Below are positions 57,722 through 63,112 of a stretch of 64,000 bases of DNA, one piece after another. The notes below the pieces were generated by a model. That model saw nothing but the letters and a program-made list of their open reading frames with translations. It did not search any database and was not told the origin of the DNA. The DNA comes from Streptomyces fagopyri. GTDB taxonomy: Bacteria > Actinomycetota > Actinomycetes > Streptomycetales > Streptomycetaceae. Each line of letters starts with the position of its first letter. Within the stretch, counting starts at the first letter, position 1. The stretch covers positions 4,836,001-4,900,000 of the forward strand of contig NZ_CP045643.1 in NCBI RefSeq assembly GCF_009498275.1, given 5' to 3'. The position numbers and the translations under genes were made by a program.

Positions 57722-58375
57722 TCAGGCGGCGCGCGGGACGTGGCGGGCGCGCCCGCGGATCCGGAACGCGGTGACGATCTCGGTGACGCCGACCGCGAGG
57801 AGCCAGCAGCCGCCCACCAGGGTGAGGACGGCGACCGACGCGAAGGGGGAGACGATCAGGACGATGCCGGCGAGGAAGCTGACGATGCCGAGGAGGATCT
57901 GCCAGCCGCGGGCGGGCACGCTCGGGTCGGAGGCGGCGGCCAGGGTCTGGGTGATCCCGCGGAACAGCCAGCCGATGCCGATCCACAGGGCGAGCAGCAG
58001 GATCGACTGCATCGCGCCGCGGAAGCAGAACAGGCCGAGCAGGATGGACAGGGCGCCGCTGATGAAGGCCATGACGCGCAGGGAGGTGGCCGCGTGGGTG
58101 CCGAACGCGGCGACGAGCTGCAGTACGCCGCTGACGAGCAGGTAGAGCCCGAAGAGCACCCCCGCGGCGAGGAGCGAGGCGCCCGGCCAGACCAGGACCA
58201 GTACGCCCAGGGCGAGGGTCGCGACGCCGGCGGCCAGGACGGCCTGCCAGGCGCTGCGGGTGAGGAGGTGCAGGGGGCCTTCGGGGACGGCGCCCGGCTC
58301 ACGGTCGTGCCGGGTGTGGGCCCGGCGGTCGTCGTACCGCGGATCGCCGGGGGCGGTGTTCGGTGCCTCGGTCAT
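57722..58375 (-). CDS. HdeD-like (DUF308) membrane protein
   Basis: 217 residues with six helices in three similar pairs (VLAAGVATLALGVLVLVWPG, AFISGALSILLGLFCF, LLGIVSFLAGIVLIVSPF). HdeD helps acid resistance in enterics; in Streptomyces the role is not known. ATG 58375. Confidence 0.87.
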   Translation of the reverse strand: MTEAPNTAPGDPRYDDRRAHTRHDREPGAVPEGPLHLLTRSAWQAVLAAGVATLALGVLVLVWPGASLLAAGVLFGLYLLVSGVLQLVAAFGTHAATSLRVMAFISGALSILLGLFCFRGAMQSILLLALWIGIGWLFRGITQTLAAASDPSVPARGWQILLGIVSFLAGIVLIVSPFASVAVLTLVGGCWLLAVGVTEIVTAFRIRGRARHVPRAA

Positions 58376-58426: not shown

Positions 58427-58720
58427 ACGGACCGGTACGCCGGCCGACGGACCGGTACCCCGGCCTCCGGACCGGGTACCCCGGCCTCCGGACCGGGTAC
58501 CCCGGCTTCCGGACCGGGTACCCCGGCTTCCGGACGGGCACCTCGACCTCCGGACCGGGTACCCCGGCTTCCGGACGGGCACCTCGACCTCCGGACCGGG
58601 TACCCCGGCTTCCGGACGGGCACCTCGACCTCCGGACCGGGCACCCCGGCTTCCGGACCGGCACCTCGACCTCCGGACGGGCACCCCGGCCTCCGGCCCG
58701 GCACCCCGGCCTCCGGCCCC
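58427..58720. repeat. 21-bp minisatellite
   Basis: About fourteen tandem units of 20-21 bases, for example CCGGACCGGGTACCCCGGC with variants CCGGACGGGCACCTCGAC. Units of two types alternate in the middle. The array lies between hdeD and the glycosylase gene (gap 58376-58822), with no supported gene in it. Confidence 0.9.
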
Positions 58721-58822: not shown

Positions 58823-59407
58823 TCACCTGCCGGAGGCCTTCGCGGCGGCCTTCAGTTCCTGTTTGTGGGCCCGGACCTTGGCCAGGGACTCGGGGCCGGT
58901 GATGTCGGCGACCGAGCGGAACGCCTTCGGTTCGCCGTAGGCGCCCGCCGCCTCGCGCCAGCCCTTGGGGTGTACGTCGAGCTGCTTGCCGAGGAGGGCC
59001 AGGAAGATCTGGGCCTTCTGGGCGCCGAACCCGGGCAGCTCGTTGAGGCGCCGGAGGAGCTCCGCGCCCGTGCCGGCGTCCTTCCAGACGGCGGCGGCGT
59101 CTCCGGCGTAGTGCTCCACGAGGTACTGGCACAGCTGCTGGATCCGCTTGGCCATCGAGCCCGGGTAGCGGTGGACGGCCGGTTTCGCGGAGAGCAGCGC
59201 GGCGAACTTCTCCGGGTCGTACGCCGCGATCTCGTGCGCGTCCAGGTCGTTCGCGCCGAGGCGTTCGGCGATCGTGCGGGGTCCCTTGAACGCCCATTCC
59301 ATCGGTACCTGCTGGTCGAGCAGCATCCCGACCAGGGCGGCGAGCGGGCTGCGGCCGAGCAGTTCGTCGGCGTCGGGATCCTGGGCGATGTGAAGACTGA
59401 TGTCCAT
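58823..59407 (-). CDS. HhH-GPD family base-excision DNA repair protein
   Basis: 194 residues: LLDQQVPMEWAFKGPRTIAERLG, then the helix-hairpin-helix LNELPGFGAQKAQIFLALLG. The family removes damaged bases, but the normal catalytic Asp region here reads QLDVHPKGW, so the exact chemistry is open. It matches a small actinobacterial subfamily of uncharacterised HhH-GPD proteins. ATG 59407. Confidence 0.83.
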   Translation of the reverse strand: MDISLHIAQDPDADELLGRSPLAALVGMLLDQQVPMEWAFKGPRTIAERLGANDLDAHEIAAYDPEKFAALLSAKPAVHRYPGSMAKRIQQLCQYLVEHYAGDAAAVWKDAGTGAELLRRLNELPGFGAQKAQIFLALLGKQLDVHPKGWREAAGAYGEPKAFRSVADITGPESLAKVRAHKQELKAAAKASGR

Positions 59408-59479
59408 GCGTCGATGATCCGGCGCGGACGGCCCCGCCGCCTCCCCGCTGCGGGACACCGCTCCGGCCCCGGGGGCCGA

Positions 59480-60208
59480 TCAGGTCGTACGCCAGTAGCC
59501 CATCGCGTTGACCCGCTGCTTCGGGAGGGCGAGCTCCTTGCGGACGTACGCCGTGAGGGAACGGGTCGTGGCGGTGTCGCAGGCGATCCACACGTACGGG
59601 TCCGGCTCGCCCTCCAGGAGGCCGGGGAGGTCCGCCCTGACCTCGGCGACGAGATGGGCGCCCCGGTCGCGGCGGGGCACCGGGCGGACGGTGTGACGGG
59701 AGGAAGCGGTGCGGAAGGGGAGCCCGTCCACGCCGTGGTCGGTCTCGAACCAGATCGTCGCCGGGGCCTGCCCCACCGCGTCCAGCAGGGAGTTGAGGGC
59801 GGGGAGCGAGGCCGGGTCGGCGACGGCGAAGACATGGGAGGGGGCCGGGTCCGGATCGGTGAACGCGGTGCCGTGGACCGTCGCGTCGATGGTGTCCCCG
59901 GGGCGGGCCGCCCGCGCCCAGTCCGAGGCGCGGCCTTCGTGCAGCGCGAACTCCAGGCCGAAGGTGCCGGCCGCCGGATCGGGGTCGACCAGGGTGTACG
60001 CCCGCTGGTGCGGCTTGCCCGCGTGGTCGAACCACAGCCGGACCCAGAGCGTGGGGTGCACCCCGGTCGCCGCGAGCATGCCGCCGTCGGTGAACCGCAG
60101 CCGCCGGTAGCGCGGGGTGACGTCCTCGGCACCGGTCACGGTGAACGTGAAGTCCTTGCCGCGCAGCAGTTTGAGTACCGCGCCCTCCCAGCCGTGCCCC
60201 TGGCCCAT
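59480..60208 (-). CDS. Siderophore-interacting protein (ferric-siderophore reductase)
   Basis: 242 residues: FAD/NAD ferredoxin-reductase-like protein of the ViuB/SIP type (VTPRYRRLRFTDGG, PHQRAYTLVDPDP, and C-terminal VNAMGYWRTT). It reduces Fe(III)-siderophore in the cytoplasm. The promoter has an iron box 41 bases upstream. GGTGGAG before ATG 60208. Confidence 0.92.
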   Translation of the reverse strand: MGQGHGWEGAVLKLLRGKDFTFTVTGAEDVTPRYRRLRFTDGGMLAATGVHPTLWVRLWFDHAGKPHQRAYTLVDPDPAAGTFGLEFALHEGRASDWARAARPGDTIDATVHGTAFTDPDPAPSHVFAVADPASLPALNSLLDAVGQAPATIWFETDHGVDGLPFRTASSRHTVRPVPRRDRGAHLVAEVRADLPGLLEGEPDPYVWIACDTATTRSLTAYVRKELALPKQRVNAMGYWRTT

Positions 60209-60248
60209 CCTGTCTCCACCCCTCGCGTACGATCTCGGCCAACTAAAG

Positions 60249-60267
60249 TTAGGTTAGCCTAACCTGA
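60249..60267. promoter_or_regulatory. Iron box for DmdR/IdeR
   Basis: TTAGGTTAGCCTAACCTGA is a 19-bp element with one mismatch from perfect symmetry and close to the DmdR consensus TTAGGTTAGGCTCACCTAA. It lies in the shared 77-base promoter of the divergent siderophore genes. Confidence 0.92.
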
Positions 60268-60285
60268 TAAAAGTGGGGATGGACT

Positions 60286-62454
60286 GTGACCGCCGAGCTC
60301 TACCGTGACCCCTGGGGAATCCCCCATCTGCGCGCCGGGAGCGCACTCGAACTCGCCCACGCCCAGGGCCGCACCACCGCCGTCGACCGCGCGTGGCAGC
60401 TGGAGGTCGAACGGCACCGCGCGCGGGGCACCTCCGCCTCGTTCCTCGGCGCCGGAGAAGCCGCCTGGGACGTGTTCGTCCGCCGGGCCCGGCTCGACGA
60501 CACCGCGAGACGCTGCTTCGCCGCCCTGGAGAGACAGGACCCGGAGACCGCCGAGTGGGTCGTCTCCTACGTCGACGGGGTCAACGAAGGACTCGCCGAA
60601 GGCGCCCGCCGCGCACCGGAGTTCGCCCGGACCGGACTCGTACCGGGCCGCTGGGAGCCCTGGACCCCGCTCGGTGTCTGGCTGGCCACCCACATCCTGT
60701 TCGCCGGTTTCCCCGCCAAGCTCTGGCGCGAGGAGGTCGTGCGGCGGCTCGGCGCCGACGCCGTCGGGCTCTTCGCCACCGACGGGCCCGGCACCTCCGG
60801 CAGCAACGGCTGGCTCGTCACCGGCGAACGGACCGTCACCGGGCAGCCGGTCATCGCGGGCGACCCGCACCGCTTCATCGAGGACCCCGGCGTCTACCAG
60901 CAGATCCATCTCGCCTGCCCCGAGTTCGACGTCGTCGGCCTCGCCGTCCCCGGCGTCCCGGGCATCGCCCACTTCGCCCACACCGAAACCGTGGCCTGGG
61001 CCATCACCAACGCGATGGCCGACTACCAGGATCTGTACCGGGAGCGGCTGCGCCGGACCGGGGAGGCGGGGGAGGCCCTGGAGGCGCTGGACCCGGACGG
61101 CCGGTGGCGGCCGGTGACCCGGCACGTGGAGACGGTCGAGATCGCGGGCGGCGCACCGGTCGAGGTCGAGGTGATCGAGACCGCGCGGGGACCGGTCGTC
61201 ATAGGGGGAACCGGAACGGACCACGGCACGGCCGGGGGGAGCGGGCAGGACGCGGACGGCCGGGGCGCCGTCGGGCCCGTCAGCCTCCGTTATCCGCCCC
61301 GCGTCACCGGGGACCTCGGCTTCAGCGCCCTGCTGCCGCTCCTGCGCGCCCGCGAAGTCGCCGACGTGGACCGGGCGTTCGACCTGTGGGCCGAGCCCGT
61401 CAACGTCGTCCAGGCCGCCGACACCGCGGGCGGGGTGCTGCACCGGGTCGCGGGCCGCGTCCCGGTCCGCGCCGAGGACAACCGGACCCGGATCGTCGCG
61501 GCCTGGGAGCCCGGACACGAGTGGCGGGGCTGGCACGAGATGCCGTACGGAACCGTCGAGGACGGCATCGCCGTGATGGCCAACCAGCGTGGCCCCGCGA
61601 CCCCGCTCGGCGTCGAGTTCGCCCCGCCGCACCGCGCCGCGCGCATCCGCGACCTGCTCGCCTCCCGGACGGCCTGGCCGGCCCCGGACATGGCGGCCGT
61701 CCACATGGACACCCATCTCGCCTCCGCCGCACCCCTGATCGGCCATGTCGCCGCCCTCGGCGGACTCACCCCGCGGGCGGCGGAGCTGCGCGGCCTGCTG
61801 CTGCTCTGGGACCGCAGGATGGAGGCCGACAGCGCGGGGGCGGCGGCGTACGCGGCGGTCCGAAGCGGGGTCGTACGACGGCTCGCCGCCCACCCGGTCT
61901 TCGCCGTACTGGCCGACCCGCCGGAGTACCCCGAGGTCCTGCGCCCCTGGCTCGCCCTCCTCCCCCGCATCGGCTTCGCCCTCGAGAACCTGCTCAGGGC
62001 CGAGGAGTTGTACGGCATCGACCGCGCCGGTCTGGTGCGCGCTGCCGTCGAGGAGGCGGCCGCTCGGCCGCTCGGCGTCTGGGGCGACAGCCACCGCCTC
62101 GCCCCCTGGCGGGCGACGGCCGGCGACGCGTACGACGAACCGGGGCTCGCCGGCGACCACGACTGCGTGCTGTGCACCTCGGCCGTCCCCGGCCTCACCG
62201 ACCTGAGCGCGCGCGGACCGGCCGCCCGTTACGTCTGGGACCTCGCCGACCGCGACAACAGCCTCTGGGTGGTGCCGTTCGGCGCCTCGGGGGTTCCCGG
62301 CTCGGCCCATCACCGCGACCAGCTCCCCCTGTGGCTGGCGGGAGAACTGGTGCCCGTACGCACCGACTGGGACCGGCTGACCGGGGAACGGCGACCGGCC
62401 CCGCACACCACCCCGGAATCCGTCCGGGACGACCAGGAGAACCATGATCACTGA
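60286..62454 (+). CDS. Penicillin-acylase (S45 Ntn-hydrolase) family protein in an iron-controlled locus
   Basis: 722 residues. The spacer-nucleophile junction GTSGSNGWLVTG has Ser173 as likely N-terminal nucleophile after self-cleavage, with the beta chain following. There is no signal peptide, unlike typical secreted acylases, so it should work in the cytoplasm. S45 enzymes cut or form amides; with a siderophore reductase and an acyltransferase under one iron box it probably edits acyl groups on hydroxamate siderophores. A desG-like role is my best guess. Its end overlaps the next gene by 11 bases. GTG 60286. Confidence 0.85.
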   Translation: MTAELYRDPWGIPHLRAGSALELAHAQGRTTAVDRAWQLEVERHRARGTSASFLGAGEAAWDVFVRRARLDDTARRCFAALERQDPETAEWVVSYVDGVNEGLAEGARRAPEFARTGLVPGRWEPWTPLGVWLATHILFAGFPAKLWREEVVRRLGADAVGLFATDGPGTSGSNGWLVTGERTVTGQPVIAGDPHRFIEDPGVYQQIHLACPEFDVVGLAVPGVPGIAHFAHTETVAWAITNAMADYQDLYRERLRRTGEAGEALEALDPDGRWRPVTRHVETVEIAGGAPVEVEVIETARGPVVIGGTGTDHGTAGGSGQDADGRGAVGPVSLRYPPRVTGDLGFSALLPLLRAREVADVDRAFDLWAEPVNVVQAADTAGGVLHRVAGRVPVRAEDNRTRIVAAWEPGHEWRGWHEMPYGTVEDGIAVMANQRGPATPLGVEFAPPHRAARIRDLLASRTAWPAPDMAAVHMDTHLASAAPLIGHVAALGGLTPRAAELRGLLLLWDRRMEADSAGAAAYAAVRSGVVRRLAAHPVFAVLADPPEYPEVLRPWLALLPRIGFALENLLRAEELYGIDRAGLVRAAVEEAAARPLGVWGDSHRLAPWRATAGDAYDEPGLAGDHDCVLCTSAVPGLTDLSARGPAARYVWDLADRDNSLWVVPFGASGVPGSAHHRDQLPLWLAGELVPVRTDWDRLTGERRPAPHTTPESVRDDQENHDH

Positions 62455-63112
62455 GCCGTACGCCCCCGCCCGCGAGGCCGTCCACGAAGAGGAGGTCGAC
62501 GGCTTCGGCACCGTCCGCGTGCTGCCCGTCGACCCCCGCGCCGACCTGGACGTCATCCACCGGTGGGTGACACAGGAGCGCGCCGGCTTCTGGGGCATGA
62601 CCGGATTCACCAGGCAACAGGTCCTGGAGACCTACCTCCTCCTCGACTCGCTCGACACCCACCACGCCTTCCTCGCGGTCAAGGACGGCGAGCCCGCCGC
62701 GCTCTTCCAGACGTACGAGCCCGAGGCCGACCGGGTCAGCGAGTGCTACCGGGCCGAGCCCGGCGACATCGGGATCCACCTGCTGATCGGCCCCGCGGGG
62801 GACGAGGGCGCCCGGCCGGGCTGGTCCTCGAAACTGCTGACCGCCTTCACCACCTATGTGCTGATCGGCCTCGACCGCCGACGGGTCGTGGTCGAACCCG
62901 ACGCACGCAACACGAAGGCGATCTCCCGTCTGGTCCGGCAGGGCTTCGAACCGGGCCCCGAGATCGTGCTTCCCGAAATCGACCTTCCCGGGGTCTACTT
63001 GCCCGAGAAGCGCGCCCGGCTCGCCTTCCTGAACCGGGAAGCGGTGTTCGGGGCCGGCTCGCCCGCCACCCCGGGCGTCCCGGCCGGACCGCGCGCTTCG
63101 CCGGTGGAGTGA
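62444..63112 (+). CDS. IucB/RhbD-type siderophore N-acyltransferase (GNAT)
   Basis: 222 residues: VIHRWVTQERAGFWGM, AALFQTYEPEADRVSECY, GDIGIHLLIGP and RVVVEPDARNTKAISRLVRQGF define the AlcB/IucB type which acylates hydroxylamines. Overlap with the S45 gene implies coupled expression under the iron box. Its partner is likely a desferrioxamine-type pathway encoded elsewhere (desH-like). Confidence 0.86.
   Translation: MITEPYAPAREAVHEEEVDGFGTVRVLPVDPRADLDVIHRWVTQERAGFWGMTGFTRQQVLETYLLLDSLDTHHAFLAVKDGEPAALFQTYEPEADRVSECYRAEPGDIGIHLLIGPAGDEGARPGWSSKLLTAFTTYVLIGLDRRRVVVEPDARNTKAISRLVRQGFEPGPEIVLPEIDLPGVYLPEKRARLAFLNREAVFGAGSPATPGVPAGPRASPVE

Follow-up and report, generated by a model that had tools for sequence, protein, structure and literature searches.

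The locus at 59480-63112 of the window (the whole 64-kb stretch of DNA that was analysed) is Streptomyces desJGH, the orthologue of SCO4048-4050, and has already been published. It very probably acts as an iron-repressed unit that is accessory to desferrioxamine (DFO) biosynthesis, in which DesG and DesH carry out a succinyl-to-acetyl exchange on the capping monomer that leads to DFO B. SCO4048-4050 were described as desJGH, under DmdR1, in a study published in 2025 (PMC12161575), and the desJGH operon is cited as DmdR1-controlled in a 2026 paper (PMC13011467).

Locus organization and identity

The locus is divergent. On one side of a DmdR/IdeR-type operator (the iron box, 60249-60267) lies desJ (59480-60208, minus strand; 242 aa; PF04954/PF08021), a siderophore-interacting reductase and DesF-type paralogue, and on the other side lie desG and desH. 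The product of desG (60286-62454, plus strand) is an S45 Ntn-hydrolase of 722 aa, assigned through PF01804, PDB alignments and a structure model; its start is the GTG at 60286, the first start codon downstream of an in-frame stop. The desH gene (62444-63112, plus strand) encodes a DesC-like GNAT acyltransferase of 222 aa (PF13523), and its start lies under the desG stop in an overlap of 11 bp. These open reading frames and their coordinates are as given in the preliminary description, which had named a reductase, a hydrolase and an acyltransferase and had pointed to a desG/desH identity that matches the published desJGH (PMC12161575).

In the account of PMC12161575, SCO4048-4050 comprise a desF paralogue, a gene of the penicillin-amidase family and a desC-like acyltransferase gene, adjoined by the HhH-GPD gene SCO4047. 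The same gene order, HhH-GPD neighbour, DmdR-type box and domain content were found here, with desABCD elsewhere in the genome, and the rule by which that study recognizes desGH (PF01804 and PF13523 genes within 1 kb) selects the present pair. Compared by published residue numbers, the S. coelicolor stop sites W55 and Q68 of DesJ and W61 of DesG occur at identical numbers here, and those of DesH occur two positions earlier (W41 and Q89). The published numbers suggest differences in protein length: DesH has 222 aa here versus about 205 in S. coelicolor by the numbers of PMC12161575, and the 721 residues lost after W61 imply about 781 aa for SCO4049 versus 722 aa for DesG here.

The equivalent of SCO4047 (58823-59458, minus strand; TIGR03252, 316.5 bits) is a conserved neighbour that probably stands outside the function of the locus. 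Between this HhH-GPD gene and an open reading frame at 57722-58375 (minus strand), a tandem array (58428-58716) contains about 7.1 copies of a 41-bp unit with 92% matches.

Iron box and the remaining desferrioxamine genes

Sites were scored by their mismatches to the 19-bp iron-box palindrome. The box at 60249-60267, TTAGGTTAGCCTAACCTGA, has 1 mismatch to this palindrome and is separated from the starts of desJ and desG by 40 and 18 bp, respectively, so the near-perfect box reported earlier between the reductase and the two-gene unit stands. It is the sole match with ≤3 mismatches in the window, and 0 of 100 shuffles gave one. Genome-wide, the pattern scan returned 6 sites with ≤3 mismatches, 3 of them with ≤2, and the reversed control pattern returned 0 matches; by a zero-order estimate, about 7e-5 sites with ≤1 mismatch would be expected in the 8.88 Mb. 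The other two sites with ≤2 mismatches, at 5871127 and 5873228, lie just upstream of desA and desE. Iron control of the locus in this strain would be the expected consequence of such an operator.

The region at about 5.866-5.873 Mb carries, all on a single strand and in this order, genes with the domains of desE, desF, desA, desB, desC and desD. They lie about 0.97 Mb from desJGH, in agreement with the earlier statement that desG and desH stand apart from desABCD. Genes of the IucA/IucC type occur at three sites of the genome, and two of these are further NIS-type sites, at about 2.748-2.752 Mb (L100) and 2.361-2.363 Mb (L101).

Active site and acyl pocket of DesG

DesG matches Penicil_amidase (PF01804, 3.6e-152) over residues 3-698 of 722 and profile positions 2-673 of 675, and its structure model has a mean pLDDT of 93.1. 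Ser173, within a GSN motif, aligns with the beta-chain N-terminal nucleophile (beta1) of solved relatives, and is therefore the right residue for the S173 that the preliminary description had taken as catalytic; His195 corresponds to beta23, Arg196 to beta24, and Asn433 aligns to the oxyanion residue beta-Asn242 of 4HSR. Ser173 and Asn433 are invariant in 97 aligned rows. Together with the whole-domain match, these residues place DesG among the S45 Ntn-hydrolases, and autoproteolytic maturation may be expected from the motif. Assignment as a PvdQ-type acylase was rejected at 33.2 bits, compared with a cut-off of 950 for NCBIfam NF051460.

Arginine occupies beta24 in all 97 aligned relatives and in 357 of the 360 homologues listed (the other 3 were without the searched motif); in the corresponding motif, this genome's three other S45 genes have Leu, Thr or Tyr. 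In a published table of ten S45 structures, beta24 is Arg only in 4HSR and 7EA4, is Phe or Val in penicillin G acylases, and is Leu in the classic glutaryl acylases, which have Arg at another pocket position (PMC11241749). Judged from the predicted model, the closest full-length solved fold among the 50 structure-comparison matches listed is that of D-succinylase. By structure alignment, DesG has the S45 fold, Ser beta1, His beta23 and Arg beta24 in common with both the D-succinylase of Cupriavidus (7EA4/7EBY; 26% identity) and class III cephalosporin acylase (4HSR/4HST; 35-36% identity). At beta70, however, DesG has Asn (Asn242; Asn in 96 of 97 rows) where 7EA4 has Arg (R350) and 4HSR has His, and because of this Asn we do not file DesG as a D-succinylase. 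PDB entry 35sz, named 'Penicillin acylase family protein', is the closest solved structure to DesG by sequence, is absent from the 50 structure-comparison matches listed, and may itself be a DesG relative.

The simplest reading of Arg at beta24 is that the acyl group would bear a carboxylate, as succinyl does. We propose that DesG uses Arg196 to recognize the succinyl carboxylate; the invariant Arg and the D-succinylase fold lend support, though not proof, to the published view of DesG as the enzyme that takes off succinate. The original proposal for desG, as described in PMC12161575 and PMC6401478, was instead an arylacetyl- or phenylacetyl-type acylase making aryl-capped ferrioxamines, and an aryl-ferrioxamine has been detected in S. 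venezuelae, with a desG candidate behind an iron box (PMC6401478), so that acyl scope may differ by strain. We consider an aryl-type acylase unlikely here, since beta24 is an invariant Arg in the DesG set rather than the Phe or Val of penicillin G acylases (PMC11241749), since desG is needed for DFO B in S. coelicolor, for which PMC12161575 indicates no known arylated DFO, and since the new acyl group would be expected to be set by DesH, not by DesG.

By a crude hydropathy criterion (mean over 11 residues >1.8 within residues 1-50), 0 of 97 sequences (DesG and 96 aligned relatives) have a signal-like stretch, which makes the earlier term 'cytoplasmic' reasonable, though not proven. Among the papers listed on desG/desH, acylated or arylated DFO, D-succinylase and S45 pocket residues, we found none with purified DesG or DesH.

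DesH and DesJ

DesH matches Acetyltransf_8 (PF13523, 3.1e-43), its best solved match is the desferrioxamine biosynthesis protein DfoC, and it shares 36% identity with the genome's own DesC over 180 columns. We collected 77 DesH and 30 DesC pieces, dropped DesH pieces with stops and added the genome's own two proteins, giving 72 DesH and 31 DesC rows for comparison (with the genome's own DesC present twice, also as L139). Differences between the two sets include Gln89 in DesH versus Glu74 in DesC and an insertion near DesH 171-180; no prediction of acyl-CoA specificity was obtained from these 72 versus 31 rows. DesJ matches SIP (PF04954, 2e-20) and FAD_binding_9 (PF08021, 3.1e-10). Among solved structures, DesJ matches the mycobactin importer IrtA best, with a further match to ViuB; its identity to the genome's own DesF is 28% over 113 aa.

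Conservation and co-occurrence with DesD

Synteny was assessed in the best 80 of at least 570 DesG relatives, all Streptomyces by title, a set in which synteny is expected because it is the closest part of the family. Of these 80 loci, 79 have desH after desG (the exception, L098, is at a contig end), 77 have a box with ≤3 mismatches in the 200 bp ahead of desG (the exceptions are L060, at a contig end, L075 and L080), and 76 have an HhH-GPD gene no more than 4 kb upstream of desG. A divergent desJ adjoins in 59 of the 80 and gave no match in 21, two of which (L060 and L091) are truncated by the end of a contig; loci without a desJ match usually retain the box in front of desG.

For the wider comparison, 396 genomes of Actinomycetota (the phylum inferred from relatives) were searched with DesG and DesD; the genomes were judged to be the same in both draws from the listed handles and equal counts. 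At E 1e-60, DesG was found in 26 of 396 genomes, from 9 genera, and DesD in 42, of which 34 had ≥45% identity, a cut set after seeing the gap between 45% and 40%. DesD at ≥45% identity occurred in 25 of 26 DesG-positive versus 9 of 370 DesG-negative genomes, and at E 1e-60 in 25 of 26 versus 17 of 370. The association has a Fisher p-value of 5e-31, uncorrected for relatedness, with 15 of the 25 genomes belonging to the genus of the window and both genes present together in 8 genera. The distance between DesG and DesD is at most 10 kb in every one of the 10 non-Streptomyces genomes that have both; in the 15 genomes of the window's genus, the two are on separate contigs or at least about 0.5 Mb apart.

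In other actinomycetes, as here, PF01804 and PF13523 are adjacent or fused, and the genome usually encodes DesD as well; at the present locus the two genes are separate, overlap and lie about 0.97 Mb away from desD, whereas the ten non-Streptomyces genomes with both have DesG ≤10 kb from DesD. Fused DesG-DesH proteins make up 18 of 120 among the homologues listed, in agreement with the fusions noted in PMC12161575. The 1.5-kb flanks of DesG contain a DesH match in 22 of 26 genomes, the misses being G049, G214, G255 and G010. In G255, desC, desD, desA and desB domain genes are followed by NRPS genes and then desG, an arrangement that resembles the nocardichelin-type cluster of Gordonia described in PMC12161575. 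In another genome (G230), desA, desC, desD, desG and desH all run in one direction. The DesG-like S45 gene of G010 (L169:5978-8383, plus strand) encodes Arg at beta24 and is adjoined by a convergent GNAT gene (PF00583) and ABC-transporter genes; this genome gave no DesD match.

That the desGH pair serves another NIS siderophore of this genome is highly improbable. The IucA/IucC genes near 2.36 and 2.75 Mb, the latter site with a PF13523 gene, would offer such a pathway, but the genome-wide scan gave no iron box with ≤3 mismatches at either site, and DesG tracks DesD in the 396-genome draw and lies near it outside Streptomyces. Supply to these two sites was set aside on operators and co-occurrence.

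Proposed function

That DesG and DesH are needed for normal DFO B has been shown by others in S. coelicolor (PMC12161575). According to that study, DFO B fell about 1000-fold in a desG mutant and 16-fold in a desH mutant, with a rise of DFO E in both, whereas DFO B went up, not down, when desJ was lost. The acetyl-capped desferrioxamine B is thus described there as the desGH-dependent product, and the exchange is proposed to convert N-hydroxy-N-succinylcadaverine to N-hydroxy-N-acetylcadaverine, on the monomer. The two chemical steps would, as proposed in PMC12161575, be divided between DesG and DesH. The earlier suggestion of acyl exchange on hydroxamates therefore holds in kind and is refined to a succinyl-to-acetyl exchange on the monomer, not mainly arylation (PMC12161575); this version, giving DFO B, has the most support.

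The same mutants bear on a different role, in which DesG and DesH would act on finished or imported ferrioxamines, by hydrolytic recycling or by remodelling after reductive iron release by DesJ. We regard this as very unlikely. The reductase does have the same operator region as desGH, and DesG is without a signal-like stretch, but precursor balance is a fitting explanation for the rise of DFO E in both the desG and the desH mutant, DFO B increased upon loss of desJ (PMC12161575), and 21 of the 80 desGH loci (best 80 of at least 570 relatives; 2 of the 21 cut by contig ends) have no desJ match. For recycling of imported siderophores, which the preliminary description had offered, nothing was found in support. 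Given the loci without a match and the S. coelicolor result, DesJ seems dispensable.

Under the preferred reading of monomer capping, low iron would release a DmdR-type repressor from the box and both sides of the locus would be expressed. DesG, with Ser173 as nucleophile, would take the succinyl group off N-hydroxy-N-succinylcadaverine made by DesC. The acetylated monomer would cap the chain, so that DesD would yield linear DFO B and not cyclic DFO E alone, and DesJ would act as a ferric-siderophore reductase. A broader proposal, for and against which we weigh the case evenly, is that DesG is a dedicated hydroxamate de-succinylase of a distinct S45 subfamily, with Arg196 (beta24) clamping the succinyl carboxylate; that DesG and DesH together run a directional editing cycle, from succinyl to acetyl, on N-hydroxycadaverine and thereby determine how much capped relative to cyclic DFO is made across Actinomycetota; and that DesG clusters without DesH pair the same hydrolase with another acyltransferase.

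As the locus is already published, this window is one more genome. Two things are added here: Arg196 (beta24), a residue open to experiment, and a broader co-occurrence analysis bearing on the chemical step left unproven in the published model. DFO B is used as a drug against iron overload, and the presence of desGH goes with its production by a strain, as against only uncapped forms.
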